Source: Jilunia laotingensis (GTDB lineage: Bacteria; Bacteroidota; Bacteroidia; Bacteroidales; Bacteroidaceae). From it: 64,000 bases of DNA. Made by a program: the position numbers and the translations under genes. The notes beneath the pieces are model-generated. The model had not been told where the DNA came from. It saw nothing but the letters and a program-made list of their open reading frames with translations, and searched no databases. The stretch is from positions 1,116,001 to 1,180,000 of the forward strand of contig NZ_JACRTF010000001.1 of the NCBI RefSeq assembly GCF_014385165.1, written 5' to 3'. Positions 1-64,000 of this stretch are shown one piece after another; the first letter of the stretch is position 1; each line of letters starts with the position of its first letter.

Positions 1-319
1 GACCAAGTTCTTGGATAATGACATGGAAAAGTGGTTGATGTAATTCGGAGGTTCTAAGGAGAAACAGTTCATCGTCAAGCTTGCTAAGAAGTATATCCCT
101 CTCCCATTCCTTCTCTTTAATGAGTTTTTCCAGATATTCTTCGTTCAATCCTTTTGTTTTGCGCATCTCCCAAAAATGGATCACGCTTTCCTCGTCCAGC
201 ATCACAACATTTTCGATGACCGAAGATGTCACATAGCCTAAACATTTCCATACGCGGAGAGTAGATTCGGAAACACCGTATTTCTCCGAAAGTCGTTTTA
301 GAGTAAGCCAATTAGACAT
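1..319 (-). CDS. Helix-turn-helix regulator, C-terminus beyond left edge
   Basis: Partial gene; about 106 N-terminal residues are visible before the window edge. Residues 5-30 form a MerR/HTH-like helix-turn-helix (LSEKYGVSESTLRVWKCLG) followed by a short beta-type segment (ENVVMLDEE). After that comes a charged, probably coiled-coil stretch (EYLEKLIKEKEWERDILLSKL). I chose the ATG at 319 because an AGGAGGGAGG Shine-Dalgarno stretch sits just upstream. An in-frame ATG at 406 would add 29 residues beginning MNRTIKKALS. A paralogue with about 60% identity by eye lies at the right edge on the opposite strand and has the same promoter and leader. The family is not one I can name. DNA binding is inferred from the HTH alone, and the unseen C-terminus may decide what it is. 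Confidence 0.8.
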   Translation of the reverse strand, partial: MSNWLTLKRLSEKYGVSESTLRVWKCLGYVTSSVIENVVMLDEESVIHFWEMRKTKGLNEEYLEKLIKEKEWERDILLSKLDDELFLLRTSELHQPLFHVIIQELG

Positions 320-402: not shown

Positions 403-664
403 ATACCTTTTCGAATATTTATGAACGCCCGAATCCTGAGGTATATAGCTTTATATATAAAAGAAGCCGAGCGCTGAGTTCATATTTATCCGACGAAAGG
501 TACTGGTATACCCGAATTGCTAACAAATATGTTCACACGCTCGACTATACAGTCGGTCGCATGAAACAAAAATGTTGAAGCAATTCCCTTTCGGCTTAAA
601 TAAAATTACCAGTTTTTTCGTCGTCAAAAGTTGTTCCATCCTGCCGCATTTCTCTTCGGCTTTC
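403..664 (-). ncRNA. Conserved structured 5' leader of left-edge HTH gene
   Basis: A non-coding stretch between the promoter and the left-edge gene that is conserved in sequence with 63140-63400 on the other strand. Near the 5' end it carries a GCCG/CGGC hairpin inside AAAGCCGAAGAGAAATGCGG, identical in both copies. Its centre is a long-range stem in which 538-545 pairs with 466-473. An inner stem pairs 524-531 with 481-488, and a small GGTA...TACC hairpin lies inside that. A T-rich run follows the outer stem (CTTCTTTTATAT), as in an intrinsic terminator. Just upstream, CGACT...AGTCG (545-558 region) can pair instead, using the same GTCG as the terminator stem. An attenuator or riboswitch is inferred; a ligand is not known. 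Confidence 0.6.
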
Positions 665-670
665 AAAAGA

Positions 671-701
671 CAAAGATAGAAAATCCCATCAGAATGACAA
701 A
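671..701 (-). promoter_or_regulatory. Bacteroides promoter of left-edge gene
   Basis: On the minus strand, TTTG (698-701) and TATCTTTG (671-678) are separated by exactly 19 bp, matching the Bacteroidetes housekeeping promoter. The same box and spacing occur at 63103-63133 in front of the right-edge paralogue. Transcription would start near 664, giving a leader of about 345 nt before the ATG at 319. Confidence 0.75.
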
Positions 702-28383: not shown

Positions 28384-31300
28384 ATGAAGAAAAATATACT
28401 CCTATGCATATTCCTGTCACTAGGTACATTGACGGCATGGGCACAAGAACAGACATCTTTGCTTCCGACCAACGAAATGAAGGGAATCATAACGGGTACC
28501 CCTCAAGAAAAGATTAAGGATACAAACTTACCGGGTACACCGGTTCAGCAACAACGCCAATTCAAGAAAAGTACGTCTCCGGCTTCCATATCTGATTATG
28601 AAGGCACATTCATACAAATAAGCGAAGATAGCAACGGCAAGGAAACCGGTTATGCTGTCGAAATAAGTGTTGTTGACAACCACACGTTAGCCATTACGAA
28701 TTTCTGGAATGGCGAGAAAACGATAAAAGCTTCTATCAACCTTGAAGAAGGCACTTTGAAGATTGATCCCCAAGAGATTGCAGTTCATTCCACCTATGGA
28801 AGCATCTTTATATATAGTTACGATTTTGAGACGAACAGATATAACTCCCAGGTTCCCATCCAGGGAACAATAAATGATGGAGTGATAACGATAGACTCAT
28901 GGATCGCATTAATCAACGAAGGAGAATATAAGAGTTACAGCTTGGGCGTTTATAGAGGATCGGAACTGATTATGCCCAACAGCAATATGACGGAAACGAC
29001 ACTTGAATCCAATGGGGAAAAAGTGACCACCGTCTATCCTGTTTACTTAGAACAGAGTAGTCCGAACGAACTATCCATGTATAATGCAGCCAATATAGGA
29101 GTGAAAATCAACCTACAACTCAATTCGGACAAGACAATTGCCATTCCTCCTCAAACCTTCCTGAGCAATGCCATGTATGGCAAATTCAATTGTTATCCGT
29201 TGAAGACGGTTTCGGCAACCAATCCGGAATTCTATACAGACCGAATGATTAAAGGCACAATTTCCGGTACGGACCTAAGCTGGGAGAATTGGGGCATCTT
29301 CTGCCCGAAAGCCGGCATAGTAGCTTCTTTATATACATCTTCCGTATTAAACACCCTTCTGGAAATAAGTTTCCCGAAACCGGTCGTAGCCGACTTCGAA
29401 GGGAAAGGTACACCGGAGGCTCCTTATCTGATCAAAACAATGGAAGATTTATATATGCTTTCGGAAGTAGTCAATTCTGACAAAACGCTCAATGGCGATC
29501 ATACCAGCACTTATGCAGGACAATATTTCCGTCTGGAATCAAACTTGGACGCAACAACGCTAAGTCCGACATTGCATCCGATCGGAAACAATGCGATCCA
29601 ACGTTTTGCCGGAATCTTTGACGGCAACAATAAAACGATCCGTAATCTGACAATGGACGAAGGAATGGGTTATTGCGCATTGTTCGGCCACATCGACACC
29701 GATGGTGTCATAAAGAATCTGAATCTGGAAAACTACACTTGCGAAACACTCGGGAGCTATGGAGGAAGTATCGCAGGATATGTCTGGGGGAAAATAGAGA
29801 ACTGCCATACAACGGGAGCTATGAGTTTCGGAAGTGCATATACCGGTGGCATCGCCGGATATTCTTATGGTGCGGAAATTATCAACTGTTCTTTCAAGGG
29901 AACAATGACAGGAACAGACTATATGGGTGGCATTGTGGGTACATCTTTTGGCAATATCAAAAAGTGTTGGGCAGATGCAACGATCAATTTTTCCAATAAT
30001 AATCCCAATACCACCTGCGGAGGCATTACAAGTTCTATGTTCGGTACAAAGTTCCCGGATGCCACCATATCCGATTGTTATTTCACAGGAAGAATCAATG
30101 CTACCAATAACGAATGTACGGTTGGAGGTATTGCCGGCAGCACTAATAAAGCCATAATTCTACGTTGCTTCAATACGGCTATGATAAGCGGTACAGGAGC
30201 AAATGTCAATATGGGAGGTATCCTTGGCTTTACTTGGAACACGACCATCCGCGATTGCTACAACAGCGGACTTATCGGGAATAACCTATCACCCAAAGTA
30301 GGCGGTGTGATAGGCAGTGTTCTGGATATGAGTGACGAAGAACGGTCAAACATAGAAAACTGTTATAACTCCGGATTGGTCTACACAGCCAGCAAAGAGG
30401 AAATGCGTTACATCGTTGGCCGTCCACTTCCAAGATTGATTATAAAAAACACTTTCTATGACCAACAAATAACGGGAGTTCCCTCTCCAACTTACGGACT
30501 GTCAACCGCACAACTTACCGATGCCGGAGGAATAAAAGACTTTGACCCCGCCATATGGAACTTCACAGCCAGTCACTACCCCCGTCTAAAAGGTATCGAT
30601 GAAAACAATGCTGCTTATCTGTCGTCCGCCTGCATGTCACTTGACGAAAGCAGTAGCACGTTGGAGATACGCAAAGATTTCGACCTGACAACCGATAACC
30701 TGATAGAGTGGAAAGCAGTAATGAATACACTTTTCACTGACCAAGGACATGGCTTCTCTATCAAGGGTAATAAAGGCATCTTGAATGGTGAAGTTACACA
30801 AGATACGATCTTTGCATTCAATGCCGACAAGAATTATAAATATTACATTCTCTCTATTTCACCGATTCTATGGAAAGGGAAAGGAACGGCAACAGACCCG
30901 TTTCTAATAGAGACGAAGGCAGACATGATGAACCTGGGAATAGCAACTAATGATGCCCAACAAACCTTTGAAGGCATGTACTTTAAAATGACAGCCGACA
31001 TAGATATGGAATATGATGAAGCCTTCATAGGATTGGGAAGAGACAATACAGGCAAACTCCGGTTCGCAGGTGTCTTCGATGGAAACGGTCATACAATCTC
31101 CAAGATGAAAATTACATCCGTCGTATTTGATGATAATGGCAAACTGGCTTCGGCTTCCCGCAAATTTACCGGATTCATCGGCAGCGTGGCAGAAACCGGA
31201 GTTGTGAAGAACCTGACCATCGCGGCAAATTGTGAATTCGACCTATACGTCAATGCAGGCGCCATAGCCGGATACAACTACGGACTCATCGAAAATTGCA

Positions 31301-34300
31301 GGAACTACGCTACCGTAAAAGGATATATGAATTATGTAGGCGGCATTACCGGATATAATGCACCCACGGGAATCCTTCGTGGTTGCTTCAATACAGGAGC
31401 CGTTTATGCCGGAACAGAGTCGGTCGGTGGCATAGCCGGAGCAAACAACGGACTCATTGAGAATTGCCAAAACTGCGGATATGTCAGTGCGCTTTCACTC
31501 AGCCTATCTTATAAACCCGGAATGCAAGGTTCGGCCGGAGGCATTGTCGGTTTGAACAGCGGTATCCTCAGAAATGTAATCAATACAGGAAAAATAGCCA
31601 GTTATAAAAACATCAGCGGCATAGCAGGAAAAACACAGAAAGTCAGTGGACAAGGAGGCTCTATAGTAAATGCCATCAACTATGGTAAAGTGGAGATATG
31701 GACGGACAGAAGTACTTCCGGACAAATCATCGGTGACAACATGGGGGCAACCGAAATCATCGACAGTTACTACGACATTCAGTTGCAAACTTTAGCAGCC
31801 GCAAACAATCAGGTTAAAGAGGGAGCGTCCGGTTGTAAAACAAGAGGGCTGATCAACGGTAAGTTAAACCTGCCCGATTCGGCCTGGGTGCAAAAGGAAA
31901 ACACATATCCCATGCTCATTTCATTCAAGAATGAAGCGCAAGCTTTGGTCGATTCACGCGCTGTAATCGTATTGGACGATGCCAGTACGATTGCCAACAT
32001 GAGTAAAGAAGGAGCTAAATTACAAAACAATACGGAAGTCACTTGGGAACTCCTTCACAATACGGAAAATTTCAGGATTGAAGAAGGTCTGTTGAAAGTT
32101 ACAATGCCAACCGACCAAATCGCAACAGACACACTTGTTGCGACCTATGGCACAGTGAAACGTACCATTCCGATCATGGCTCTTTATAATATTCTGGAAG
32201 GTAAAGGCACCCAAGAAGAACCTTGGCTAATAAAGAGTACTTCCGATATGAATAAACTATCCGATTTTGTAATGAACACCAAGCATGAGTATAAAGGAGA
32301 GAATTTCAAAGTAATGGAAGACCTTGACTTCTCCGGTATCAATTACACACCGATAGCCATTGAAGATGTTATTTTCCAAGGATATTTTGACGGCAATGGG
32401 AAAACAATCAAGAATATCACTTATGCCGTGGCTGATTCATCAACCGTCAAAGAGCGAGGACTATTCGGTGTTATCGGTTCTGACGGTACCATCGCCAACT
32501 TGACCCTCTCCAATTGTAAATTCCAGACTTACCAAAGGTGCGGAGCTTTCGCAGGAAGCCTTTATGGGACGATCACGAACTGCACAAACGATCATACGGA
32601 AGTATCCACCACCGGTACCATGCATGCCGGAGGTATTGCCGGCTTCGGCTATTTGGGTGCTGCAATCGAGAATTGCAAAAATAATGGTAATGTAACAGCA
32701 GCGAGTGTACACGCAGGAGGTATATTAGGAGGTTCGGATGCCGAACAAACCGTGAAGATCAGCAAATGTTCCAATGAAGGCAATATAAATGCCAAGACAT
32801 CCCAGGTCGGTGGTATCATCGGTCGCGGAGCTGCCAATATTGAAGATTGCTATAACACATCAGCCATTACCATCTCCTCCTCCAATGCAGGTGGTATTGC
32901 CGGAGATTTGTTAAAGGGATCTTATATCAACAAATGTCATAACACGGCTAATATTATTGCCAATACTTGTGCGGGAGGCATCGTAGGAACCATAGAGAAT
33001 CATTCCGAAGACATGCCGTTCATACTGGAGAATTGCTATAATACGGGAGAAGTTTCAACTACGTATTCCGTGAAATCCACAAGCAATGCAGGAGGGATCG
33101 TGGGCAAAGCAGGAAATGCATGTGCCATCCGCAACTGTTACAACACGGCACCAATCACCACCACTACCGGCAATGCCGGTGGAATTGCCGGTGGAATCAC
33201 CGGTTCCGCAACAGCACCTTCAATCATCGAAAAATGCTATAATGCCAAAGAAGCCACCATTCTGGCAAATACGAACTATGCAGGAGGCATTGCAGGCAAT
33301 GCAACCTACACTTACATACAGGAGACGCATAATGAAGCGGATGTCACCGCTGGTGAGGACAAAAAAGTAAGTTATGCAGGAGGTATTGCAGGTGGTTGTA
33401 CAGGCTATATGGATAAATCATGGAATAGTGGAAAAGTAACCGCCAAATACAGTCTGGCAGGTGGAATAGCAGGAAATGCCGTAGCTACCATCGACCGTTG
33501 TTACAATCGCGGAGAGGTCATCAGCGAAGGGATCGAACCCAAAAAGAGCGTAAGTACAGGCGGCATCTTGGGCAAAGGCAATTCAATGTTGACAAACTGT
33601 TATAACACGGGGACAGTCACAGGCTTCAGCGAAGTTGGCGGAATCATCGGAAGCATGGTTGCCGGCAGCAAGACAGAACCAGGTACAACCGTCACCGGTT
33701 GTTACAATCTGGGTACAATCAATGCCACGTCTACCGACAGCATTGGAAACATTACCGGACTGGCAGCAAACTACACTCATGTATCCGCTTCCTTCTATGA
33801 TAAAACGCTATGTTCAACACATGTCCTGGACACTTGTGCCACCGCCCTGACCAGTGAAGAAATGGTTAACGCCCAATTAGGAGATGCTTTCCTGTATGGA
33901 GTAGCTACCTATCCGCGCATCGATGCATTCGAAAAAGATACGGTTGCCAACTTCTATGCAACAATGATCATACTTGCCGAGGGAGACGAGATGGATGATA
34001 TCAAGAAAAATATCCAAATCGGAACACCCGAAGGAGCCGAATGGACAGCAACCTCCAATCTTTCTATTGATGGTAATACCGTTTCTCCTAAAAACAGTGA
34101 AATCGGTGAAGAGGCTACACTCACCCTGACAGCCGGGGATTTAGAAAAAGCTTATCACCTGATACTGAACGTCATTCCGGATGGCATCGATAAGAATGAA
34201 ATGACAAAAGTTGTTGTAGAACGTACCTACTACACTGTCACAGGCATCCGGGTAGCTAAACCTGCAAAAGGCCAGATTAACATAGAGAAACGGATATACG

Positions 34301-34344
34301 ATGATGGTACCTCCGAAGTTGTGAAAACTATGCCGGAAAAATAA
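28384..34344 (+). CDS. Giant GLUG-repeat surface protein 2
   Basis: A 1986-residue exported protein (signal peptide MKKNILLCIFLSLGTLTAWAQ). An N-terminal pair of beta domains carries the paired phrases 'KIDPQEIAVHSTYGSIFIYSYDF' and 'IPPQTFLSNAMYGKF'. Then come three GLUG modules with headers at about 338 (GKGTPEAPYLIKT), 829 (GKGTATDPFLIET) and 1271 (GKGTQEEPWLIKS). The modules share phrases such as CYNTG.V and AGGIAG. The C-terminus is VVVERTYYTVTGIRVAKPAKG...YDDGTSEVVK, a sorting-domain-like motif. The architecture and module spacing are the same as GLUG1. Length and wording are nearly the same as GLUG3, which follows after about 45 nt, so the two look like a tandem duplication. Function is inferred from repeats only. 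Confidence 0.85.
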   Translation: MKKNILLCIFLSLGTLTAWAQEQTSLLPTNEMKGIITGTPQEKIKDTNLPGTPVQQQRQFKKSTSPASISDYEGTFIQISEDSNGKETGYAVEISVVDNHTLAITNFWNGEKTIKASINLEEGTLKIDPQEIAVHSTYGSIFIYSYDFETNRYNSQVPIQGTINDGVITIDSWIALINEGEYKSYSLGVYRGSELIMPNSNMTETTLESNGEKVTTVYPVYLEQSSPNELSMYNAANIGVKINLQLNSDKTIAIPPQTFLSNAMYGKFNCYPLKTVSATNPEFYTDRMIKGTISGTDLSWENWGIFCPKAGIVASLYTSSVLNTLLEISFPKPVVADFEGKGTPEAPYLIKTMEDLYMLSEVVNSDKTLNGDHTSTYAGQYFRLESNLDATTLSPTLHPIGNNAIQRFAGIFDGNNKTIRNLTMDEGMGYCALFGHIDTDGVIKNLNLENYTCETLGSYGGSIAGYVWGKIENCHTTGAMSFGSAYTGGIAGYSYGAEIINCSFKGTMTGTDYMGGIVGTSFGNIKKCWADATINFSNNNPNTTCGGITSSMFGTKFPDATISDCYFTGRINATNNECTVGGIAGSTNKAIILRCFNTAMISGTGANVNMGGILGFTWNTTIRDCYNSGLIGNNLSPKVGGVIGSVLDMSDEERSNIENCYNSGLVYTASKEEMRYIVGRPLPRLIIKNTFYDQQITGVPSPTYGLSTAQLTDAGGIKDFDPAIWNFTASHYPRLKGIDENNAAYLSSACMSLDESSSTLEIRKDFDLTTDNLIEWKAVMNTLFTDQGHGFSIKGNKGILNGEVTQDTIFAFNADKNYKYYILSISPILWKGKGTATDPFLIETKADMMNLGIATNDAQQTFEGMYFKMTADIDMEYDEAFIGLGRDNTGKLRFAGVFDGNGHTISKMKITSVVFDDNGKLASASRKFTGFIGSVAETGVVKNLTIAANCEFDLYVNAGAIAGYNYGLIENCRNYATVKGYMNYVGGITGYNAPTGILRGCFNTGAVYAGTESVGGIAGANNGLIENCQNCGYVSALSLSLSYKPGMQGSAGGIVGLNSGILRNVINTGKIASYKNISGIAGKTQKVSGQGGSIVNAINYGKVEIWTDRSTSGQIIGDNMGATEIIDSYYDIQLQTLAAANNQVKEGASGCKTRGLINGKLNLPDSAWVQKENTYPMLISFKNEAQALVDSRAVIVLDDASTIANMSKEGAKLQNNTEVTWELLHNTENFRIEEGLLKVTMPTDQIATDTLVATYGTVKRTIPIMALYNILEGKGTQEEPWLIKSTSDMNKLSDFVMNTKHEYKGENFKVMEDLDFSGINYTPIAIEDVIFQGYFDGNGKTIKNITYAVADSSTVKERGLFGVIGSDGTIANLTLSNCKFQTYQRCGAFAGSLYGTITNCTNDHTEVSTTGTMHAGGIAGFGYLGAAIENCKNNGNVTAASVHAGGILGGSDAEQTVKISKCSNEGNINAKTSQVGGIIGRGAANIEDCYNTSAITISSSNAGGIAGDLLKGSYINKCHNTANIIANTCAGGIVGTIENHSEDMPFILENCYNTGEVSTTYSVKSTSNAGGIVGKAGNACAIRNCYNTAPITTTTGNAGGIAGGITGSATAPSIIEKCYNAKEATILANTNYAGGIAGNATYTYIQETHNEADVTAGEDKKVSYAGGIAGGCTGYMDKSWNSGKVTAKYSLAGGIAGNAVATIDRCYNRGEVISEGIEPKKSVSTGGILGKGNSMLTNCYNTGTVTGFSEVGGIIGSMVAGSKTEPGTTVTGCYNLGTINATSTDSIGNITGLAANYTHVSASFYDKTLCSTHVLDTCATALTSEEMVNAQLGDAFLYGVATYPRIDAFEKDTVANFYATMIILAEGDEMDDIKKNIQIGTPEGAEWTATSNLSIDGNTVSPKNSEIGEEATLTLTAGDLEKAYHLILNVIPDGIDKNEMTKVVVERTYYTVTGIRVAKPAKGQINIEKRIYDDGTSEVVKTMPEK

Positions 34345-34394
34345 CCGGTCAAAAGTATGTCACACGATCATTGTTTTACTAAATAATTATGCTC

Positions 34395-37300
34395 ATGAGA
34401 AAGATTACATTTCTTTGGATATTCCTGTTACAAGGGATATTAGTGACTTGGGCGCAAGAGAAAATCTCTACGCTACCTGCAATCGAGATGAAAGGAATCT
34501 TAGCAGGTACTCCACAGGAAAAGGTTAAAGCAGCCGACATTCCTGGTGCAATGATAACCACGCACCGCATCAAAACGAATGCACCTACGGTTTCCGCCTC
34601 CGATTTCGAAGGTACATACATGCAAATCAGTGAAGACCGTGATGGCACGGAAACAGGTTATGCCCTTGAGATCAGTGCTACGGATAATACGACTTTATCC
34701 ATCAGTAATTTCTGGAACGGTGATAAGACAATAAAAGCCATTCTCCATCCGGAAGATAATACGATAAAGATTGATCCACAGGAGATTTCCGTTCATCCCA
34801 CCTACGGTAGTATCTTTATATACAGCTATGATTTCAAGACAAATACCTACAACCCTAACGTACCGGTCATGGGTATTGTCAAAGACGGAGCAATCACTTT
34901 CGATTCCTGGATCGCCCTTATCAACGAAGGAGAATACAAAAGTTACAGTCTAGGCATATATAAAGGATCGGAACTTACCCTTCCCAATAGTAACATGACG
35001 GAAACATCCCTCACGTCTAAAGATGAGGAAGAGACCCTTGTTTATCCGATACTCCTGAAACAGATAAATGCGAATACACTTGCCATGTATAATACATCGA
35101 ATATCGGTGTGAAAATCGACATACAGTTAAACCCGGATAAGACCTTTACCATTCCTCCCCAAGTCTTTCTGGCAAATTCTCTGTATGGCAGTTTCATCTG
35201 TTATCCGCTGAAGAAGGTTTCCGGAACCAATCCCCAGTTCGACCGCAATCAAACGATTACCGGAAAAACAGCGGGATCAGACCTGAGTTGGGAAAACTGG
35301 GGAGTATACAGTCCGTCATCAGGAATGCTACTGGGAGTATACAAATCTTCCGTTTTGAATACTCTTCTGGAAATAGATTACCCCAAGCCTGTCGAAGCAA
35401 ATTTTGAAGGGAAAGGTACTCCGGAGAGTCCGTATCTGATCAAAACGATGGAAGATCTCTATATCTTCTCGGAAACGGTGAATGCAGACAAGACATTAGT
35501 CGATGACCATACCAGCAGCTATGCCGGGAAGTATTTCCGTTTGGAAACCGACCTGGATGCATCCACACTCACCACTACCCTTCATCCTATCGGCTGTAAC
35601 GCCACACAACGCTTTGCGGGAGTTTTTGATGGAAACAATAAAACGATCAGAAACCTGACAATGAAGGAAGGGATGGGTTATTCCGCCTTATTCGGAAATA
35701 TCGGTTCGGAAGGAGTCGTAAAGAACCTGAGACTGGAGAACTACACTTGCGAAACCCTCGGATATTATGGGGCAGGCATTGCCGGATATGCTTACGGAAG
35801 AATCGAAAATTGTCAGGTCGAAGGCACTATTCTTTCCGAAAGCACCTATTCGGGAGGGATTGCCGGATACTCCGACACCGCAGACATCATCAACTGCTCC
35901 TTCAAAGGAACCATGACGGGAGGTGATTATATGGGAGGCATCGTAGGCACTTCTTTCGGCAATATCAGAAAGTGCTGGGCAGATGCAACTATCACCTTTG
36001 CGAACACCGGATCGTTTACGTCATGCGGAGGTATCACAAGTGCCATGTACGGCACCAAAGCCGATATAAAAATCAGTGACTGTTATTTCACGGGACAGAT
36101 CAAGGCACTCAACAACGAATATACGGTGGGAGGTATCGCTGGATGTACCAAAGTGACCAAGATCGTACGGTGCTTCAATACGGGTACAATAACCGGGACC
36201 GGTGCTTCCGTCAACATGGGAGGTATATTAGGTTATATCTGGGATAGTACGGTTCAAGATTGCTACAACAGCGGTATGATAGCCGATGCCTACTCCGAAC
36301 GGGTAAGCGGCATCGTAGGAAACACGCTGGACATGAAAGAGGAAGAGAAATCATTGATAGAGAACTGTTACAATACAGGAATCATTTACACGAAAAGTAA
36401 AGAAGAATCCTGTTACATCATCGGGCGGACCCTTCCCGCCGTAACCATCAAGAACAGCTTCTACGACCAACAAATCCTGGCTGTACCGTCCACGACCTAT
36501 GGCATTTCAACCGCACAACTCACGGATGCCAAAGGCATAAAAGACTTTGATGCTTCTGTATGGAACTTTACGGCAGGACACTATCCCCGCTTGAAAGGCA
36601 TTGACGAGAATAATGCGGCATACCTGTCGGCAGCTTGCCTCTCTCTGGACAAGATGGGTACAGCCAAAGAAGTCCGCAGGGATTTCACACTGACCACGGA
36701 CAATCAGATTCAATGGAAAGCCGTTTTGAACGAATACTTCGGGAATAACGGTCACGGTTTCTCCATCGAAGGCAACAAAGGGGTGCTGAATGGAGAAGTC
36801 ACTCAGGACACGATATTTGCCTTCAACGCAGATAATAAATTCAAATACTATATCTTGTCCATATCTCCTGTCCGCTGGAAAGGAGAAGGCACAGCCGATG
36901 ACCCGTTCCTTATTGGGAACAAAGAAGATATGATGAACCTGGCTGTTGCAACCAATGATGCCAAACAGACGTTCAATGGTTCACACTTCAAGATGACGGC
37001 TGATATCGACATGGAATATGATGAGAACTTCACCGGACTGGGAAAAGATAACACCGGAAAAATACAGTTCGGAGGTATCTTTGACGGGAACGGGCATACG
37101 CTCTCCAAAATAAAAATCAATTCCATCGCCTTTGATGACAACGGGAAGATCAACACCAACGGCTCCCGGAAATTTACGGGCTTCATCGGATGCCTAGCTG
37201 AGTCGGGTGTGATCAGGAATCTGACCATAGCTGCCGATTGCGATTTCAACATGTACTCCAATGCCGGAGCCATAGCAGGATATAGCTACGGACTGATCGA

Positions 37301-40300
37301 AAACTGTAAGAATTACGCCACGGTGAAAGGATACATGAACTATATTGGTGGAATCGTTGGCTATAACGGGCCTTCGGGAAGAATACGAAACTGTTTCAAT
37401 TCCGGTACCGTCTACTCCGGTTCGGAAGCAGTCGGTGGAATAACCGGTGCAAGCAACGGCATCGTGGAAAGCTGCCAGAACACCGGACTTGTCAGCGCAC
37501 TTCCGCTCAGCATTACTTATAAAGCCGGCTCACAAGGTTCAGCGGGCGGCATCGCTGGCTTGAACAGCGGCATTATAAGAAACGTACTCAATACGGGAAA
37601 AGTAGCTACCTATGACAACGTAAGCGGTATCGTCGGTGGCACACAGAAAGTAAGCGGTTCGGGCGGTTCGGTCATCAACGCAATTAACTACGGAGAGATA
37701 GAGATCTGGTACGACAGAAGCACCTCCGGTCAGATTATAGGCGACAACTCGGGAGCGACTGAAACCACCAACAATTATTATGACATTCAGATACAGGCAT
37801 TAGCTGCCGTAAACAATCAAAAGAGAGAGAACAACAACGGTGTGAATACCAAAGACCTAATTGCCGGAAAACTGGCTCTGCCCGATTCGGCATGGATACA
37901 AAAAGAGAATATGTATCCCATGCTGATTGCTTTCAAAAACGAGCCACAAGCCCAACTGGATGCACGTGCTGCTATCGTATTGGACACTGCAAGCAGCCTT
38001 GCCAATATCAGTAAAGAAGGGGGTAAACTACAAAACTCCTCTGAAATACAATGGCAACTGACTAAAAAGGCTTTCTTCCGGATTGAAGAAGGGACACTGA
38101 AAGTCACGATGCCTACGGATCAGGTGGTAACAGACACTTTAGTGGCGACCTATAATAACGTAAAACGTATGATTCCCATCCGGGCACTTTACAACATCCT
38201 TGAAGGCAAAGGTACTCAAGAAGAGCCTTGGTTGATCCGGACTCCCAATGACATGGCGAAGTTGTCCGATTTCGTCCATAAGACGGGGCATGAGTACCGA
38301 GGAGAGTATTTCAAGGTAATGGAAGACCTTGACTTTGAAGGTATGGAGTATACTCCAGTTGCTTTTGAGAACAAAATATTCCAAGGATACTTCGATGGTA
38401 ACGGCAAGACCCTGAAGAACATCACGTATGCCATCGCAGATTCTACAACGGTACAAGAAAGAGGGCTATTCGGGGTAGTAGGTGCTGACGGTACGATCGC
38501 CAACCTTACCCTGTCGAATTGCAAGTTCCAGACTTACAAGAAATGCGGAGCGTTCGCTGGAGGATTATACGGTAAGATCATCAACTGTGTAAACGATCAT
38601 ACGGACGTACTCACGACAGGTCTTATGTATGCAGGTGGTATTGCCGGATTCGGTTATGACGGTGCCAGTATCGAAAACTGCAAAAACAGCGGCAATGTGA
38701 CGGCTGGAAGTGTAGGTGCCGGAGGCATGTTGGGTAGTTCTGAAGAAGGTCAGTTAGTCAAGATCCTTTCTTGCAGCAACGAAGGTACGATCAGCGTCAA
38801 GAGTTCCCAAGCGGGAGGTATCGTTGGCCGGGCAATGGCATACATTTCGGACTGCCATAACACAGCCAATATCAAAATCTCATCGTCCAATGCAGGCGGT
38901 ATTGCGGGAAATCTGTTAACCGGTTCGTACGTAGGTAAATGCTACAACACAGCCAGCATCATTTCCAATACTTTTGCCGGTGGCATCGTCGGAACAGTCG
39001 GGAATCATACCACTGATGCCCCGTTTATTCTGGAAGACTGTTACAATACCGGTGAAGTATCGACAACCTATACGCTGAAATCAACCACCTATGCAGGAGG
39101 AATCGCTGGAAAGACCGGGAACGCTTCTATCGTACGCAACTGTTACAATAAAGCACCCATTCTGGCAAATACTTCCTATGCAGGCGGAATCGTAGGAACG
39201 ATCGCAGGAACAGTTGCCGATCCTTCCCGCATAGAAGATTGCTACAATGCCAAAGAAGGTTTGATCACCGCCAATGAAAGTTATGCCGGAGGTATTGCAG
39301 GGAGTGCCGCCAATACCATCCTCCTGAGAACTTACAATGAAGCCGACATCACAGCGCATGGAAACACGGCTCTCAATTATACAGGGGGTATCGTGGGGAA
39401 TTGTACGGGTTCTGTAGAAAAGTCATGGAACAGCGGTACGATAACTGTCGAATTCGGTTTGGCAGGCGGGATTGCCGGAAACGGCACGGGTACTATCGAC
39501 CGTTGCTACAACCGAGGTGAAGTGATCAGTCAGGGAACGGTTGCCAAGAAGAGTGTCAGTGCAGGCGGTATCCTAGGTAAAGGCAAATCCGTACTTACCA
39601 ACTGTTACAATACAGCCAAAGTATCCGGTCTCAGCGAAGTAGGCGGGATTATAGGAACCACCGTTGCCGGTACTAAGTCGGAAACAGGTACGAGCGTTAC
39701 TGCTTGCTACAATCTGGGTGAAGTCGCAGCGACTTCCGCAGACAGCCTAGGAAACATTGTCGGTCTTGCCGCAAAGTTCACCGAAGTCAGTTCGTCTTTC
39801 TACGATAAGAACTTATGCAATACGTACGTCCTCGATACTTGTGCCACCGCCCTGACCACCGCAGAGATGGTGGAAGCACCATTGGGAGATGCGTTCAAAT
39901 ACAGCGTAGCCACTTATCCGCGCATCGATGCATTCGAGAATGATGCTGCAGCCAACTTCCATGCCACCTTGATACTCTTTGCCGAAGGTGATGAAATGAA
40001 TGACGTCAAAAAGCCCATCCAAATAGGAACCCCCGAGGGTGTGGAATGGACTGCCTCTTCCAATCTCGCAATTGATGGGAACACCGTCACGTTAAAGAAT
40101 TCCGTAATCGGTGAAGAAGCTGTAATTACTTTAACAGCCGGTGATCTACAGAAGGCTTATAAGTTAATATTAAACGGTGAACCGGTAGGCATCGGCAATA
40201 CTGAAACGTCTAAAGTCATCCTGAGCCGTACGTATTATACGACCGATGGTATCCGTGTAGCCGAACCGGTGAAAGGCAGGATCATCATAGAAAAACGTAT

Positions 40301-40349
40301 CTATGAAGACGGGACTTCCGAAACCGTAAAAGTATGGACTGAAGACTAG
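34395..40349 (+). CDS. Giant GLUG-repeat surface protein 3
   Basis: An exported protein of 1984 residues from the ATG at 34395 (MRKITFLWIFLLQGILVTWAQ), or 1986 from 34389 (adds ML). It is collinear with GLUG2 along the whole length. It has the same two N-terminal beta domains (IDPQEISVHPTYGSIFIYSYDF, then IPPQVFLANSLYGSF) and the same three GLUG modules. The same C-terminal motif is present (VILSRTYYTTDGIRVAEPVKG...YEDGTSETVK). No indel of any size separates GLUG2 and GLUG3, while amino-acid changes are spread throughout. This points to duplication followed by divergence under constraint. M6b follows after 112 nt. Confidence 0.85.
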   Translation: MRKITFLWIFLLQGILVTWAQEKISTLPAIEMKGILAGTPQEKVKAADIPGAMITTHRIKTNAPTVSASDFEGTYMQISEDRDGTETGYALEISATDNTTLSISNFWNGDKTIKAILHPEDNTIKIDPQEISVHPTYGSIFIYSYDFKTNTYNPNVPVMGIVKDGAITFDSWIALINEGEYKSYSLGIYKGSELTLPNSNMTETSLTSKDEEETLVYPILLKQINANTLAMYNTSNIGVKIDIQLNPDKTFTIPPQVFLANSLYGSFICYPLKKVSGTNPQFDRNQTITGKTAGSDLSWENWGVYSPSSGMLLGVYKSSVLNTLLEIDYPKPVEANFEGKGTPESPYLIKTMEDLYIFSETVNADKTLVDDHTSSYAGKYFRLETDLDASTLTTTLHPIGCNATQRFAGVFDGNNKTIRNLTMKEGMGYSALFGNIGSEGVVKNLRLENYTCETLGYYGAGIAGYAYGRIENCQVEGTILSESTYSGGIAGYSDTADIINCSFKGTMTGGDYMGGIVGTSFGNIRKCWADATITFANTGSFTSCGGITSAMYGTKADIKISDCYFTGQIKALNNEYTVGGIAGCTKVTKIVRCFNTGTITGTGASVNMGGILGYIWDSTVQDCYNSGMIADAYSERVSGIVGNTLDMKEEEKSLIENCYNTGIIYTKSKEESCYIIGRTLPAVTIKNSFYDQQILAVPSTTYGISTAQLTDAKGIKDFDASVWNFTAGHYPRLKGIDENNAAYLSAACLSLDKMGTAKEVRRDFTLTTDNQIQWKAVLNEYFGNNGHGFSIEGNKGVLNGEVTQDTIFAFNADNKFKYYILSISPVRWKGEGTADDPFLIGNKEDMMNLAVATNDAKQTFNGSHFKMTADIDMEYDENFTGLGKDNTGKIQFGGIFDGNGHTLSKIKINSIAFDDNGKINTNGSRKFTGFIGCLAESGVIRNLTIAADCDFNMYSNAGAIAGYSYGLIENCKNYATVKGYMNYIGGIVGYNGPSGRIRNCFNSGTVYSGSEAVGGITGASNGIVESCQNTGLVSALPLSITYKAGSQGSAGGIAGLNSGIIRNVLNTGKVATYDNVSGIVGGTQKVSGSGGSVINAINYGEIEIWYDRSTSGQIIGDNSGATETTNNYYDIQIQALAAVNNQKRENNNGVNTKDLIAGKLALPDSAWIQKENMYPMLIAFKNEPQAQLDARAAIVLDTASSLANISKEGGKLQNSSEIQWQLTKKAFFRIEEGTLKVTMPTDQVVTDTLVATYNNVKRMIPIRALYNILEGKGTQEEPWLIRTPNDMAKLSDFVHKTGHEYRGEYFKVMEDLDFEGMEYTPVAFENKIFQGYFDGNGKTLKNITYAIADSTTVQERGLFGVVGADGTIANLTLSNCKFQTYKKCGAFAGGLYGKIINCVNDHTDVLTTGLMYAGGIAGFGYDGASIENCKNSGNVTAGSVGAGGMLGSSEEGQLVKILSCSNEGTISVKSSQAGGIVGRAMAYISDCHNTANIKISSSNAGGIAGNLLTGSYVGKCYNTASIISNTFAGGIVGTVGNHTTDAPFILEDCYNTGEVSTTYTLKSTTYAGGIAGKTGNASIVRNCYNKAPILANTSYAGGIVGTIAGTVADPSRIEDCYNAKEGLITANESYAGGIAGSAANTILLRTYNEADITAHGNTALNYTGGIVGNCTGSVEKSWNSGTITVEFGLAGGIAGNGTGTIDRCYNRGEVISQGTVAKKSVSAGGILGKGKSVLTNCYNTAKVSGLSEVGGIIGTTVAGTKSETGTSVTACYNLGEVAATSADSLGNIVGLAAKFTEVSSSFYDKNLCNTYVLDTCATALTTAEMVEAPLGDAFKYSVATYPRIDAFENDAAANFHATLILFAEGDEMNDVKKPIQIGTPEGVEWTASSNLAIDGNTVTLKNSVIGEEAVITLTAGDLQKAYKLILNGEPVGIGNTETSKVILSRTYYTTDGIRVAEPVKGRIIIEKRIYEDGTSETVKVWTED

Positions 40350-62145: not shown

Positions 62146-62239
62146 ATCAAAGAGAAGGGCGTACACTTTTGAAAGCGTACGTCCTTCATTCTTAAATTAC
62201 CGTTTTTTTCATATCACCTATAATAAACAACCGCGTCGC

Positions 62240-62341
62240 TTAAAGGTTCATCGCGTTACCGCCTAAGATACCCATTACAGCCGAAGCTACAGCGATAATC
62301 ACTTTCAGGAGTACATCCCATACCGATTTCTTTATTGCCAT
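62240..62341 (-). CDS. Smalltalk family small protein
   Basis: A 33-residue ORF beginning MAIKKSVWDVLLKVIIAVAS and ending in GGNAMNL, with one hydrophobic helix. It matches the very short 'smalltalk' proteins annotated throughout Bacteroides. An AGGAGGT Shine-Dalgarno stands 8 nt before the start, which is strong for this phylum. It is downstream of an HU-like gene (gap 120 nt). The usual third member, an N-acetylmuramoyl-alanine amidase, is missing. The function is unknown. Confidence 0.85.
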   Translation of the reverse strand: MAIKKSVWDVLLKVIIAVASAVMGILGGNAMNL

Positions 62342-62461
62342 AAATCACTTACCTCCTTTCTGATTCTAAATTATAAAATATTTCCACGTTTTCTTCATAC
62401 GAGTCCGATACCGATTTCGACAGACCGTCTTAGATTTCTTCTCCTATCAAATCACAGGAGG

Positions 62462-62920
62462 CTATACAGTCGGGTCTTCTCCGTGGTCGCCCCCATCACT
62501 GCCCGTCTCGGCACGGTCGAAACGAAGACATTTCACACCCGTCACCAATGAGCGAGTAGCCATGCTACGATCCGGATTGCGGGTAGATGCCGGTTGGAAG
62601 CAAACGGTGAGGGAAGCTTGCGCTGCGGATACTTCATCGGATGTATCCACGCCTTTTCCCCGCGATCTCATGACCATGCGGAAAGTTCCGAAGCCGTCCA
62701 ATGTCACGCTTTCCGAAGATTGCAGATGCTGCGTCATGACTGTTACCAAGTTTTCAACGGTGTTTTTCACATCACCGGGAGAAAGGGAGGAATAAGCGGA
62801 TATCTCTTTGGCTATCTGCGAGATGTTGACAGTTCCCGTACGAACTACGCGGGGATGGAATAGTTGTTTTCCGTTTTTGTCTTTCAAAGAGGACTGAAAT
62901 GGTTGATACAATACTGGCAT
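62462..62920 (-). CDS. HU-like DNA-binding protein
   Basis: A 152-residue protein of the Bacteroides HU-related family. The HU/IHF-like core is at about 1-125 (GTVNISQIAKEISAYSSLSPGDVKNTVENLVTVMTQHLQSSESVTLDGFGTFRMVMRSRG). A non-conserved acidic tail (DRAETGSDGGDHGEDPTV) follows. A TATCTTTG -7 box lies at 62983-62990 on the minus strand. Such proteins usually stand next to a smalltalk peptide, as here. Confidence 0.88.
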   Translation of the reverse strand: MPVLYQPFQSSLKDKNGKQLFHPRVVRTGTVNISQIAKEISAYSSLSPGDVKNTVENLVTVMTQHLQSSESVTLDGFGTFRMVMRSRGKGVDTSDEVSAAQASLTVCFQPASTRNPDRSMATRSLVTGVKCLRFDRAETGSDGGDHGEDPTV

Positions 62921-63102: not shown

Positions 63103-63133
63103 TTTGCAATCTCCAATAAATCACTTATCTTTG
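63103..63133 (+). promoter_or_regulatory. Bacteroides promoter of right-edge HTH gene
   Basis: TTTG (63103-63106) and TATCTTTG (63126-63133), spacer 19 bp. The sequence just downstream (TTGAAAGCCGAAGAGAAATG) is the same as behind the promoter at 671-701. The stretch 62991-63102 holds no gene I can support. Confidence 0.8.
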
Positions 63134-63139
63134 TCTCTT

Positions 63140-63410
63140 GAAAGCCGAAGAGAAATGCGGCAGATTGAAACGTTTTTTGCAGACAAAAAAACTACCAACT
63201 TTATTATAAACAAAAAACATGGTTTCAATAAATCTGTTTCATGCGTGCGACGTAGGGTCGGGCGTGTGAACATATTTATTAAACCATGGGGTATTGGTAG
63301 TACCTTTTGTCTGGATAAATATGAACTCAGCGCCCGACTTCTTTTTTATGTGCGGCACACATTAGAAAGCGGACGGTCATTAATATTCAAAAGGAATGAA
63401 AAGGCCAAAC
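63140..63410 (+). ncRNA. Conserved structured 5' leader of right-edge HTH gene
   Basis: The paralogous copy of the left-edge leader. The outer stem is GTCGGGCG (63257-63264) with CGCCCGAC (63331-63338), followed by TTCTTTTTT. The inner stem is CATATTTA (63271-63278) with TAAATATG (63316-63323), and GGTA (63290-63293) pairs with TACC (63301-63304). In the left copy the outer stem reads GTCGAGCG/CGCTCGGC. One position is changed on both sides (G-C to A-T) and another from A-T type to a G-T wobble, so pairing is kept. Upstream CGAC (near 63248-63251) can pair with the GTCG of the outer stem, giving an alternative fold that would break the terminator-like stem. Confidence 0.65.
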
Positions 63411-63716
63411 AAAAAAACATTGTACAGCGTTGTAAGAACAATGTACGAACAAAGTGATCATGAAAAAATCGTGAAACCAACAGCCAGCTTGACCGGTGCG
63501 GCTTTAGGAACCAATCATTACATTGCGGAATCACTTACCGAGATTCCTTGCTATCCTTTCTCCCCCCACTTAAAGAATCTTCACCGCATGGTGAAGAAAA
63601 AGATGAGACAGCTTCTAAACCATTGCAAACAAAATACTCACAATTTAATACAATATATATCTTATGGCAAACTGGCACTCAATATTGCAAATGTCGCAGA
63701 AATACGGCATTCCTGA
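63396..63716 (+). CDS. Possible upstream ORF, overlapping the right-edge gene
   Basis: A 106-codon frame starting MKRPNKKTLYSVVRTMYEQ. Its first residues resemble MNRTIKKALSCIMKE, encoded at 406 and down on the minus strand before the left-edge gene. On the left that ORF is in frame with the HTH gene. Here it is out of frame and overlaps the HTH gene by 53 nt. The remaining sequence shows no family. It could be a leader ORF, or the remains of an N-terminal extension after a frameshift. Confidence 0.3.
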   Translation: MKRPNKKTLYSVVRTMYEQSDHEKIVKPTASLTGAALGTNHYIAESLTEIPCYPFSPHLKNLHRMVKKKMRQLLNHCKQNTHNLIQYISYGKLALNIANVAEIRHS

Positions 63717-64000
63717 ATCCACTCTGCGTGGATGGAAATGTTTAGGTTACATCACATCGTCAACCGTAGACAATGTCGTGATGCTCGATGAAGAGGACTT
63801 GATCCGCTTTCTGGATATCAAACGGACTAAAGGAATGAAAAGCGATTCTTTAGAAAAAATGATCAAAGAAAAGGAACAGGAACGAGACATCCTCCTCTCA
63901 CAACTTGATGATAATCTTTATCTGCTAAAAACCCAGAAACTTTTTGAACCGCTTTACAAAATCATCATCAGGGAACTCGGTGGACTGATTACGGATGGTT
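63664..64000 (+). CDS. Helix-turn-helix regulator, C-terminus beyond right edge
   Basis: Partial gene; 112 residues are visible: an HTH (MSQKYGIPESTLRGWKCLG), a DNVVMLDEED segment, and the charged stretch SLEKMIKEKEQERDILLSQL. It aligns without gaps to the left-edge gene, with about 64 of 106 positions identical by eye. No in-frame start lies upstream of 63664 (a TAA is at 63646). No strong Shine-Dalgarno is present, unlike the left copy. DNA binding is inferred; the family is not one I can name. Confidence 0.8.
   Translation, partial: MANWHSILQMSQKYGIPESTLRGWKCLGYITSSTVDNVVMLDEEDLIRFLDIKRTKGMKSDSLEKMIKEKEQERDILLSQLDDNLYLLKTQKLFEPLYKIIIRELGGLITDG

Follow-up and report, generated by a model that had tools for sequence, protein, structure and literature searches.

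A conserved rod-forming RNA family of Bacteroidota with a mutually exclusive terminator hairpin: a candidate attenuator of diverse genes

We analysed a stretch of 64,000 nt from Jilunia laotingensis (NZ_JACRTF010000001.1, positions 1,116,001-1,180,000; assembly GCF_014385165.1), referred to below as the window. At each end of the window lies a regulator-like gene, cut by the window boundary, and each is preceded by a copy of the same RNA element, the right copy on the plus strand and the left copy on the minus strand. The TAnnTTTG motif named in the following list is the consensus of the Bacteroides -7 box; S1 denotes the leader segment that carries the 5' strands of the rod helices, and S2 the segment that carries their 3' strands.

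63126..63133, plus strand: TATCTTTG, match to the Bacteroides -7 box TAnnTTTG in front of the right copy (sequence)
63144..63161, plus strand: 5' hairpin GCCG[AAGAGAAATG]CGGC at the leader start (kept in the 18-sequence alignment)
63153..63364, plus strand: whole right element (covariance model R2 built from other genomes, E 1.3e-6)
63180..63188, plus strand: 5' strand of rod helix A, pairing with 63305-63313 (column counts)
63191..63198, plus strand: 5' strand of rod helix B, ACTACCAA, pairing with the loop at 63294-63301 (column counts)
63218..63225, plus strand: 5' strand of rod helix C, CATGGTTT, pairing with 63281-63288 (column counts)
63227..63233, plus strand: 5' strand of rod helix D, AATAAAT, pairing with 63274-63280 (column counts)
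63248..63260, plus strand: small hairpin CGAC-GTAGG-GTCG (column counts)
63257..63279, plus strand: 5' arm of the terminator, outer 63257-63264 and inner 63271-63279 (sequence, shuffles, column counts)
63274..63313, plus strand: segment S2, the 3' strands of rod helices D, C, B and A, which is the loop half of the terminator hairpin
63315..63338, plus strand: 3' arm of the terminator, inner 63315-63323 and outer 63331-63338 (sequence, shuffles, column counts)
63339..63347, plus strand: T-run TTCTTTTTT (sequence)
63396..63716, plus strand: small ORF of 106 aa, MKRPNKKTLY..., 48 nt past the T-run
63664..64000, plus strand: regulator-like gene cut by the window end, the start of a family of about 263 aa
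671..678, minus strand: TATCTTTG, -7 box match of the left copy (sequence)
436..678, minus strand: whole left element (covariance model R2 built from other genomes, E 3.5e-11)
579..623, minus strand: left S1, with helix A at 616-623, B at 607-613 and C at 579-586
491..521, minus strand: left S2, with C' at 514-521, B' at 502-508 and A' at 491-498
466..545, minus strand: left terminator hairpin, outer stem 538-545 / 466-473 (sequence, shuffles)
452..465, minus strand: left T-rich tail TTCTTTTATATATA (sequence)
1..319, minus strand: left regulator-like gene cut by the window, ATG at 319, with a short ORF from 404

In the window and its closest relatives, the element is followed by a small ORF or its remnant and then by a member of the regulator-like family; ORFs that start similarly to the 106-aa ORF were also found behind some other copies. 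The sequence-only reading had called the downstream gene a regulator, and the protein does look like one: its N-terminus gave weak matches to an HTH-bearing model, and a full-length homologue gave weak MerR/BldC/Xis-type and other fold matches (model pLDDT 78.5, pTM 0.45). No PDB match at E<=0.001 was obtained in the fold search with this model, and the full regulator had no Pfam match above the cut-off. Among 57 database homologues, three matched PF03118, which we take to be the RNA polymerase alphaCTD. Searches for the regulator matched 5 of 100 relatives (E<=1e-10) and none of the plasmids or viral contigs examined; among phages there was one distant match (22.8%). Several neighbours were also recorded. 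A gene for an HU-HIG DNA-binding protein (62200-62920) lies divergent from the right regulator, and the small ORF behind it looks similar to 'smalltalk' proteins; a gene for an Rpn/PDDEXK_2 transposase-like nuclease (856-1788) adjoins the left copy; and two neighbouring ORFs at 28384-40349, each exactly 1986 aa long, may be a duplication.

The right stem (63257-63264, GTCGGGCG, with 63331-63338, CGCCCGAC) is paired at 8 of 8 positions and is directly followed by the T-run at 63339-63347, and the left copy forms 8 pairs, one of them G-U, between 538-545 and 466-473 of the minus strand, in agreement with the earlier description of two copies of a terminator-like stem. Compared with dinucleotide shuffles, the hairpin region was unusually stable on both sides (right, z -4.1, 0/200 shuffles equally stable; left, z -2.8, 1/200), and a gapped pattern built from the motif matched the window twice and 100 shuffled sequences not once. 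Of the T-runs, that of the right copy is good, the left one (TTCTTTTATATATA) is weaker, and those of B. fragilis copies (TTCTTATATAT) are poor.

We then counted pairs in A4, a plain MAFFT alignment of 18 window-type leaders from which a degenerate copy lacking S1 (L035) was left out. The stem had been said to keep pairing despite base changes on both sides; in A4 its outer part is paired in 161 of 162 cells, only 1 of 9 pairs has changed on both sides, and 69/1000 block shuffles reach this result, so that the claim of covariation did not hold for the stem itself. The inner stem is paired in 205 of 216 cells, a value reached by 0/1000 shuffles, with 0 of 12 pairs changed on both sides. The CGAC proposed as an alternative partner of the stem is present (63248-63251), but none of its 4 pairs with GTCG changes on both sides (64 of 72 cells paired; 1000/1000 shuffles reach it; n=18), and the small hairpin that the two form sits within the rod described below. 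The loop residues described as nearly invariant, TGTGAA and GAACTCA, occur in 11 and 10 of the 18 rows, respectively (counted by eye), and the argument from them for a ligand-binding site fails once more homologues are included.

The partner of the terminator hairpin is instead a long 5' segment, 63180-63233. This segment, S1, can pair in nested fashion with the loop half of the terminator hairpin, forming helices A-D, and the letters vary between copies with complementarity kept; helix B, for example, reads ACTACCAA/TTGGTAGT in the right copy and ACTGGTA/TACCAGT in the left. In A4 (n=18), helix A was paired in 137 of 146 cells, with 5 of 9 pairs changed on both sides, and helix B in 136 of 138 cells, with 5 of 8 pairs changed; for helix C the counts, made after one gap block had been shifted by hand, were 117 of 147 cells and 8 of 9 counted column pairs. 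For each of these three helices, 0/1000 block shuffles reached the observed value. Helix D was paired in 115 of 126 cells, with 1 of 7 pairs changed on both sides, and 69/1000 shuffles reached it. The S1 x S2 duplex gave the strongest signal in the window (z -7.7 right, -4.7 left; 0/2000 shuffles each). Two exclusive folds ahead of a regulator gene therefore stand as the best reading of the locus, although covariation of the stem is minimal, CGAC/GTCG shows none, and the exclusive partner is S1.

The same relationship was examined in a broader type of the element, for which 49 of 66 sources of the R2 search (the search that matched both window copies) were carried forward; identical rows or segments were dropped before counting, leaving 46, 42 or fewer of the 49, and 17, 15, 13 or fewer of the 18 window-type leaders. 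In swap tests, which like the shuffles take all rows as independent, uncorrected for relatedness, broad-type S1 bound its own S2 at -31.5 kcal/mol and those of other copies at -16.3 (0/5000 permutations; 42 distinct of 49), the own S2 being the best in 33 of 42 rows and 38 of 42 columns. For the window type the values were -31.6 and -15.1 (0/5000; 17 distinct of 18), with the own partner best in 17 of 17 rows and 14 of 17 columns. The remaining broad-type pairings gave the same result: terminator arms, own -16.3 and swapped -13.6 (36 distinct of 49); 5' end with 3' arm, -8.9 and -7.2 (34 distinct); apical hairpin, -11.4 and -8.9 (37 distinct); each with 0/5000 permutations. The terminator arms of the window type gave a weak result (-17.8 versus -17.3; 262/5000; 13 distinct of 18). 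We also matched the letters of three strands, the 5' end, the central arm and the 3' arm, in 46 broad-type rows, and found T/T/A in 28, C/C/G in 9, T/C/G in 3, T/T/G in 2, C/T/A in 1 and no 5' anchor in 3; a later site had served as anchor for both T/T/G rows (L076, L084) and for the A of L101, which by eye read T/T/A, T/T/A and G. Results from alignment A7 lean toward the rod, because A7 was fitted to a model that holds part of it.

The S1:S2 rod was the lowest-energy fold in 46 of 46 broad-type copies, and also, by eye, in all 19 leaders folded earlier; the predicted ground state is thus a rod of about 205 nt that holds the terminator arms apart. In the right copy the rod was predicted at -66.2 versus -58.6 with the terminator enforced, and in the left copy at -60.4 versus -54.3; in the 44 of 46 broad-type copies that have a 6-bp terminator stem, it was ahead of the best terminator fold by 6.0-21.9 kcal/mol (median 15.0). 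In 76 of 78 sequences, S1 could close a hairpin of its own with three or more pairs in the stem, a count in which the register was picked to maximise pairing and some helices were misplaced (B missed in L113 and L030 and put elsewhere in L020, L025, L031 and L039), so that its shuffle result is biased; the correct helix B pairing of L020, L025 and L031 was seen in a separate pairing listing.

The element has the placement of a leader, since it lies between a promoter motif and a gene on the same strand. TAnnTTTG occurs 12-18 nt before the conserved 5' hairpin (AGCCGAAGAG) in 18 of 18 window-type leaders (0.036 in shuffled sequences). Of the broad-type copies with sufficient sequence context, 45 of 45 have it no more than 110 nt from the rod (0.07 in shuffles and downstream windows), and 12 of 16 copies of an order sample have it at a distance of up to about 100 nt, L113, L116, L120 and L128 being the ones without; this evidence is a motif match rather than a mapped promoter. 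A T-rich tail (at least 7 T of 12) was present in 43 of 46 copies, and the remaining three were, by eye, wrongly anchored. In 45 of 46 copies, the first downstream ORF of 60 aa or longer shares the strand of the RNA, and 23 of these 45 begin 46-65 nt past the approximate end of the T-run; L061, the exception, is followed at 57 by an ORF of 52 aa on the same strand. However, upstream genes likewise share the strand in 40 of 44, so that co-direction alone is no proof of a leader. Two exclusive conserved folds, one of them an intrinsic terminator, were found, the covariation of the terminator being weak in the window type.

To describe the distribution of the element, we used the motif pattern and two covariance models. 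The pattern matched two B. fragilis genomes, one of which has two matches and a third, divergent copy in tandem; in B. fragilis Q1F2 (L001:377-1014), three tandem copies stand in front of one regulator, and a second same-strand match lies within about 500 nt near L066, L067, L091 and L094. Model R1, built from seven sequences, matched at least 18 of 158 genus genomes at E<=0.01 and at least 3 of 399 in a family sample, and its weak matches led to the second, broader type. Model R2 was built from seven broad-type sequences, none of them from the window, and it recovered both window copies (436-678, minus strand, E 3.5e-11; 63153-63364, plus strand, E 1.3e-6). R2 matched at least 117 of 158 genus genomes at E<=0.01, and, at E<=1e-6, at least 128 of 251 genomes in a family sample, 64 of 247 in an order sample and 19 of 296 in a phylum sample, where the three samples overlap, all include G001 and had 7-13 candidates scored per genome. 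Across the large genome searches 7-22 candidates were scored per genome, and the tallies are therefore lower bounds. All 45 matches inspected by eye (20 from the genus, 16 from the order including weak ones, and 9 more including 3 from the phylum) had complementary S1 and S2, and in L118 helix B is absent from the predicted fold despite this complementarity. The near-palindromic rod lets R2 match many strong members on the antisense strand as well, and match counts per genome overstate the copies: the 12 matches in G157 are not 12 copies, and G135 has 7 separate places among the matches listed. Matches to the rteR sRNA (L143:689-761) and to abiF RNA (L139:2279-2315) were seen near, not on, family members. 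From the structure, covariation and distribution, we regard it as nearly certain that the element is a real RNA family.

Outside the window type, the RNA precedes many other kinds of gene with no obvious common theme. Among 10 downstream proteins scanned against Pfam, 4 were above the curated cut-off (restriction-endonuclease family, RibD_C/DHFR-like, DUF4595 and WG repeats), 2 were below it (GIY-YIG-like and FlgO-like) and 4 gave nothing; a number of other downstream proteins look lipoprotein-like by eye. In L048, L051, L052 and L099, a gene that we take to be WYL-type and an ORF of 79-127 aa lie directly upstream of the broad-type RNA, and the ORFs on its downstream side are varied. A regulator homologue at L011:1250-1501 has a different leader, with a hairpin and T-run, by eye, directly at the start codon, which suggests that the regulator family has been placed under attenuation more than once.

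We consider that most copies are probably cis-acting attenuators of diverse genes, in which the rod would permit read-through and the terminator would be the off state. The leader would be made from its own promoter, with S1 transcribed first. S1 would then pair with the emerging S2 into a rod of about 200 nt, placing the terminator arms at opposite ends, and RNA polymerase would read into the gene, which often starts about 50-60 nt downstream. If S1 were held from S2, by a candidate ligand, an RNA-binding protein or another RNA, it might close its own small hairpin; S2 would be left in the loop, the terminator stem would form beside the T-run, and transcription would stop. In the window the genes under such control would be regulator-like, with a small ORF in front, and elsewhere they would be very varied. 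Conditional termination is what we infer from the structure, the promoter motif, the T-run and the gene placement; that termination takes place at all, and in this direction, is part of the same proposal.

The attenuator is favoured by the swap tests, the column counts, the three-strand matching, the S1 hairpin, the promoter motif and the ORF placement. Several observations count against it: the rod, whose strands are transcribed first, is by far the more stable fold, and S2 would have to be freed for the terminator to form; the T-run is poor in B. fragilis copies, and covariation and the swap test of the window-type terminator are weak; 4 of 16 order-sample copies have no TAnnTTTG within 100 nt, and the degenerate L035 has no S1; and the downstream genes share no obvious theme, while upstream genes are co-directional too. 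The main rival is a standalone small RNA family with promoter, rod and terminator, in which the rod would be the working form, binding a protein or a target, and the downstream gene would be incidental. Such a family would account for the promoter motif (18/18, 45/45, 12/16) and T-rich tail (43/46), for the great diversity of downstream genes and for a rod that is the predicted ground state in 46/46, and Bacteroides has multi-copy sRNA families, FopS among them, according to the accessible part of PMC11697453. However, the next ORF is on the same strand in 45/46 at clustered spacing, and 44/46 have retained a terminator stem that cannot coexist with the rod, the 3' arm of this stem taking part in the three-strand matching; we therefore regard the standalone small RNA as possible but rather unlikely.

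The other explanations are much weaker and were rejected. Attenuation by a leader peptide, in which the fold would depend on a ribosome translating a short ORF over S1, would be in line with the ATG in GAAGAGAAATG of 14 of 18 window-type copies and with a short open frame over S1 in the copies inspected, but the remaining 4 have ATA, so that the ATG within the 5' hairpin is not a conserved start codon, and the frames and stops differ, by eye, with indels shifting the frame. A conserved start codon and reading frame over S1 were thus not found among the 18 window-type leaders, and we rejected this very improbable explanation. A palindromic DNA element (MITE, REP or recombination site) spread by transposition might be multi-copy, patchy and sometimes tandem as this family is (three copies in L001; near L066, L067, L091 and L094), and some neighbouring genes are, we presume from their appearance, mobile; compensatory changes across divergent copies, a near-constant spacing of the promoter motif and a position before genes would nevertheless be unexpected of transposon copies, and we give this explanation hardly any credence. 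Least credible is an ordinary intrinsic terminator with the long pairing as a by-product, since helices A-C covary far beyond the terminator itself, although a terminator-like hairpin and T-rich tail are indeed present in many copies.

Returning to the attenuator, we tentatively propose a broader possibility, that the copies form a phylum-wide, hitherto undescribed class of switching leaders. One rod/terminator switch, possibly with one shared cue or factor, might place unrelated, fast-changing genes (surface lipoproteins, WG-repeat proteins, nucleases and regulators) under common control of termination, and the private loop-to-leader pairing of each copy might prevent cross-pairing between paralogues. 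If true, this would subject surface and accessory genes of a dominant gut phylum to a new level of control. RNA-based regulation in Bacteroides is described as little explored in the accessible parts of PMC7366714 and PMC11697453.

No Rfam family lay on the element at the gathering threshold, and relaxed thresholds were also tried; HIV GSL3, whose match coincided exactly with the hairpin (E 2.6), and rliD (E 0.16) scored far below their gathering scores and were taken as chance matches. The family is apparently undescribed, as judged from Rfam and the accessible literature, with supplements and most subscription papers outside this scope. UpxY-controlled capsule leaders lie upstream of upxY and depend on it, and inspection of the listed neighbours by eye revealed no upxY gene. 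In the accessible parts of PMC11109978 and PMC8632094, no Bacteroidota terms were found. The palindromic Bacteroidetes candidates with predicted terminators of Fremin and Bhatt 2021 resemble the element, but they are 40-132 bp long and no such rod is described in the part of PMC8040213 available; a fragment of the rod family could be among its 3161 entries, which were compared by description rather than by sequence. FopS, a set of paralogous sRNAs in Bacteroides thetaiotaomicron, is likewise a multi-copy Bacteroides family with a terminator. FopS has a single-stranded 5' stretch and a terminator hairpin and is stated to be deposited in Rfam (PMC11697453, accessible part); identity with FopS was rejected on the grounds that no Rfam match fell on the element and that the 5' part of the element is paired in predicted folds.

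The element also resembles 6S RNA (RF00013, RF01685), which is rod-like with internal loops, in its length of about 200 nt, its rod with internal loops and its own promoter, but it differs in having several copies per genome, a terminator stem exclusive of the rod and a gene a short way downstream. No Rfam match to the element was obtained at E<=1 in 9 loci, and the 6S models themselves matched 0 of 10 (RF00013) and 0 of 11 genomes (RF01685, a search without a positive control), G001, G002, G014 and G116 among them. A 6S RNA is reported in Bacteroides thetaiotaomicron in the accessible part of PMC7366714, and the Rfam 6S models may miss it, which makes the comparison with 6S a weak test. With transcription-attenuating riboswitches and leader attenuators, the element shares the leader position, the promoter motif in front, folds that compete for the same strands and a T-run after one of them, and it differs in that the alternative fold is a rod of about 200 nt made by loop-to-upstream pairing and that the genes are diverse, with no metabolic theme. 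In its predicted working, the element, known here from sequence and predicted folds, may thus be likened to an attenuator or a riboswitch platform.
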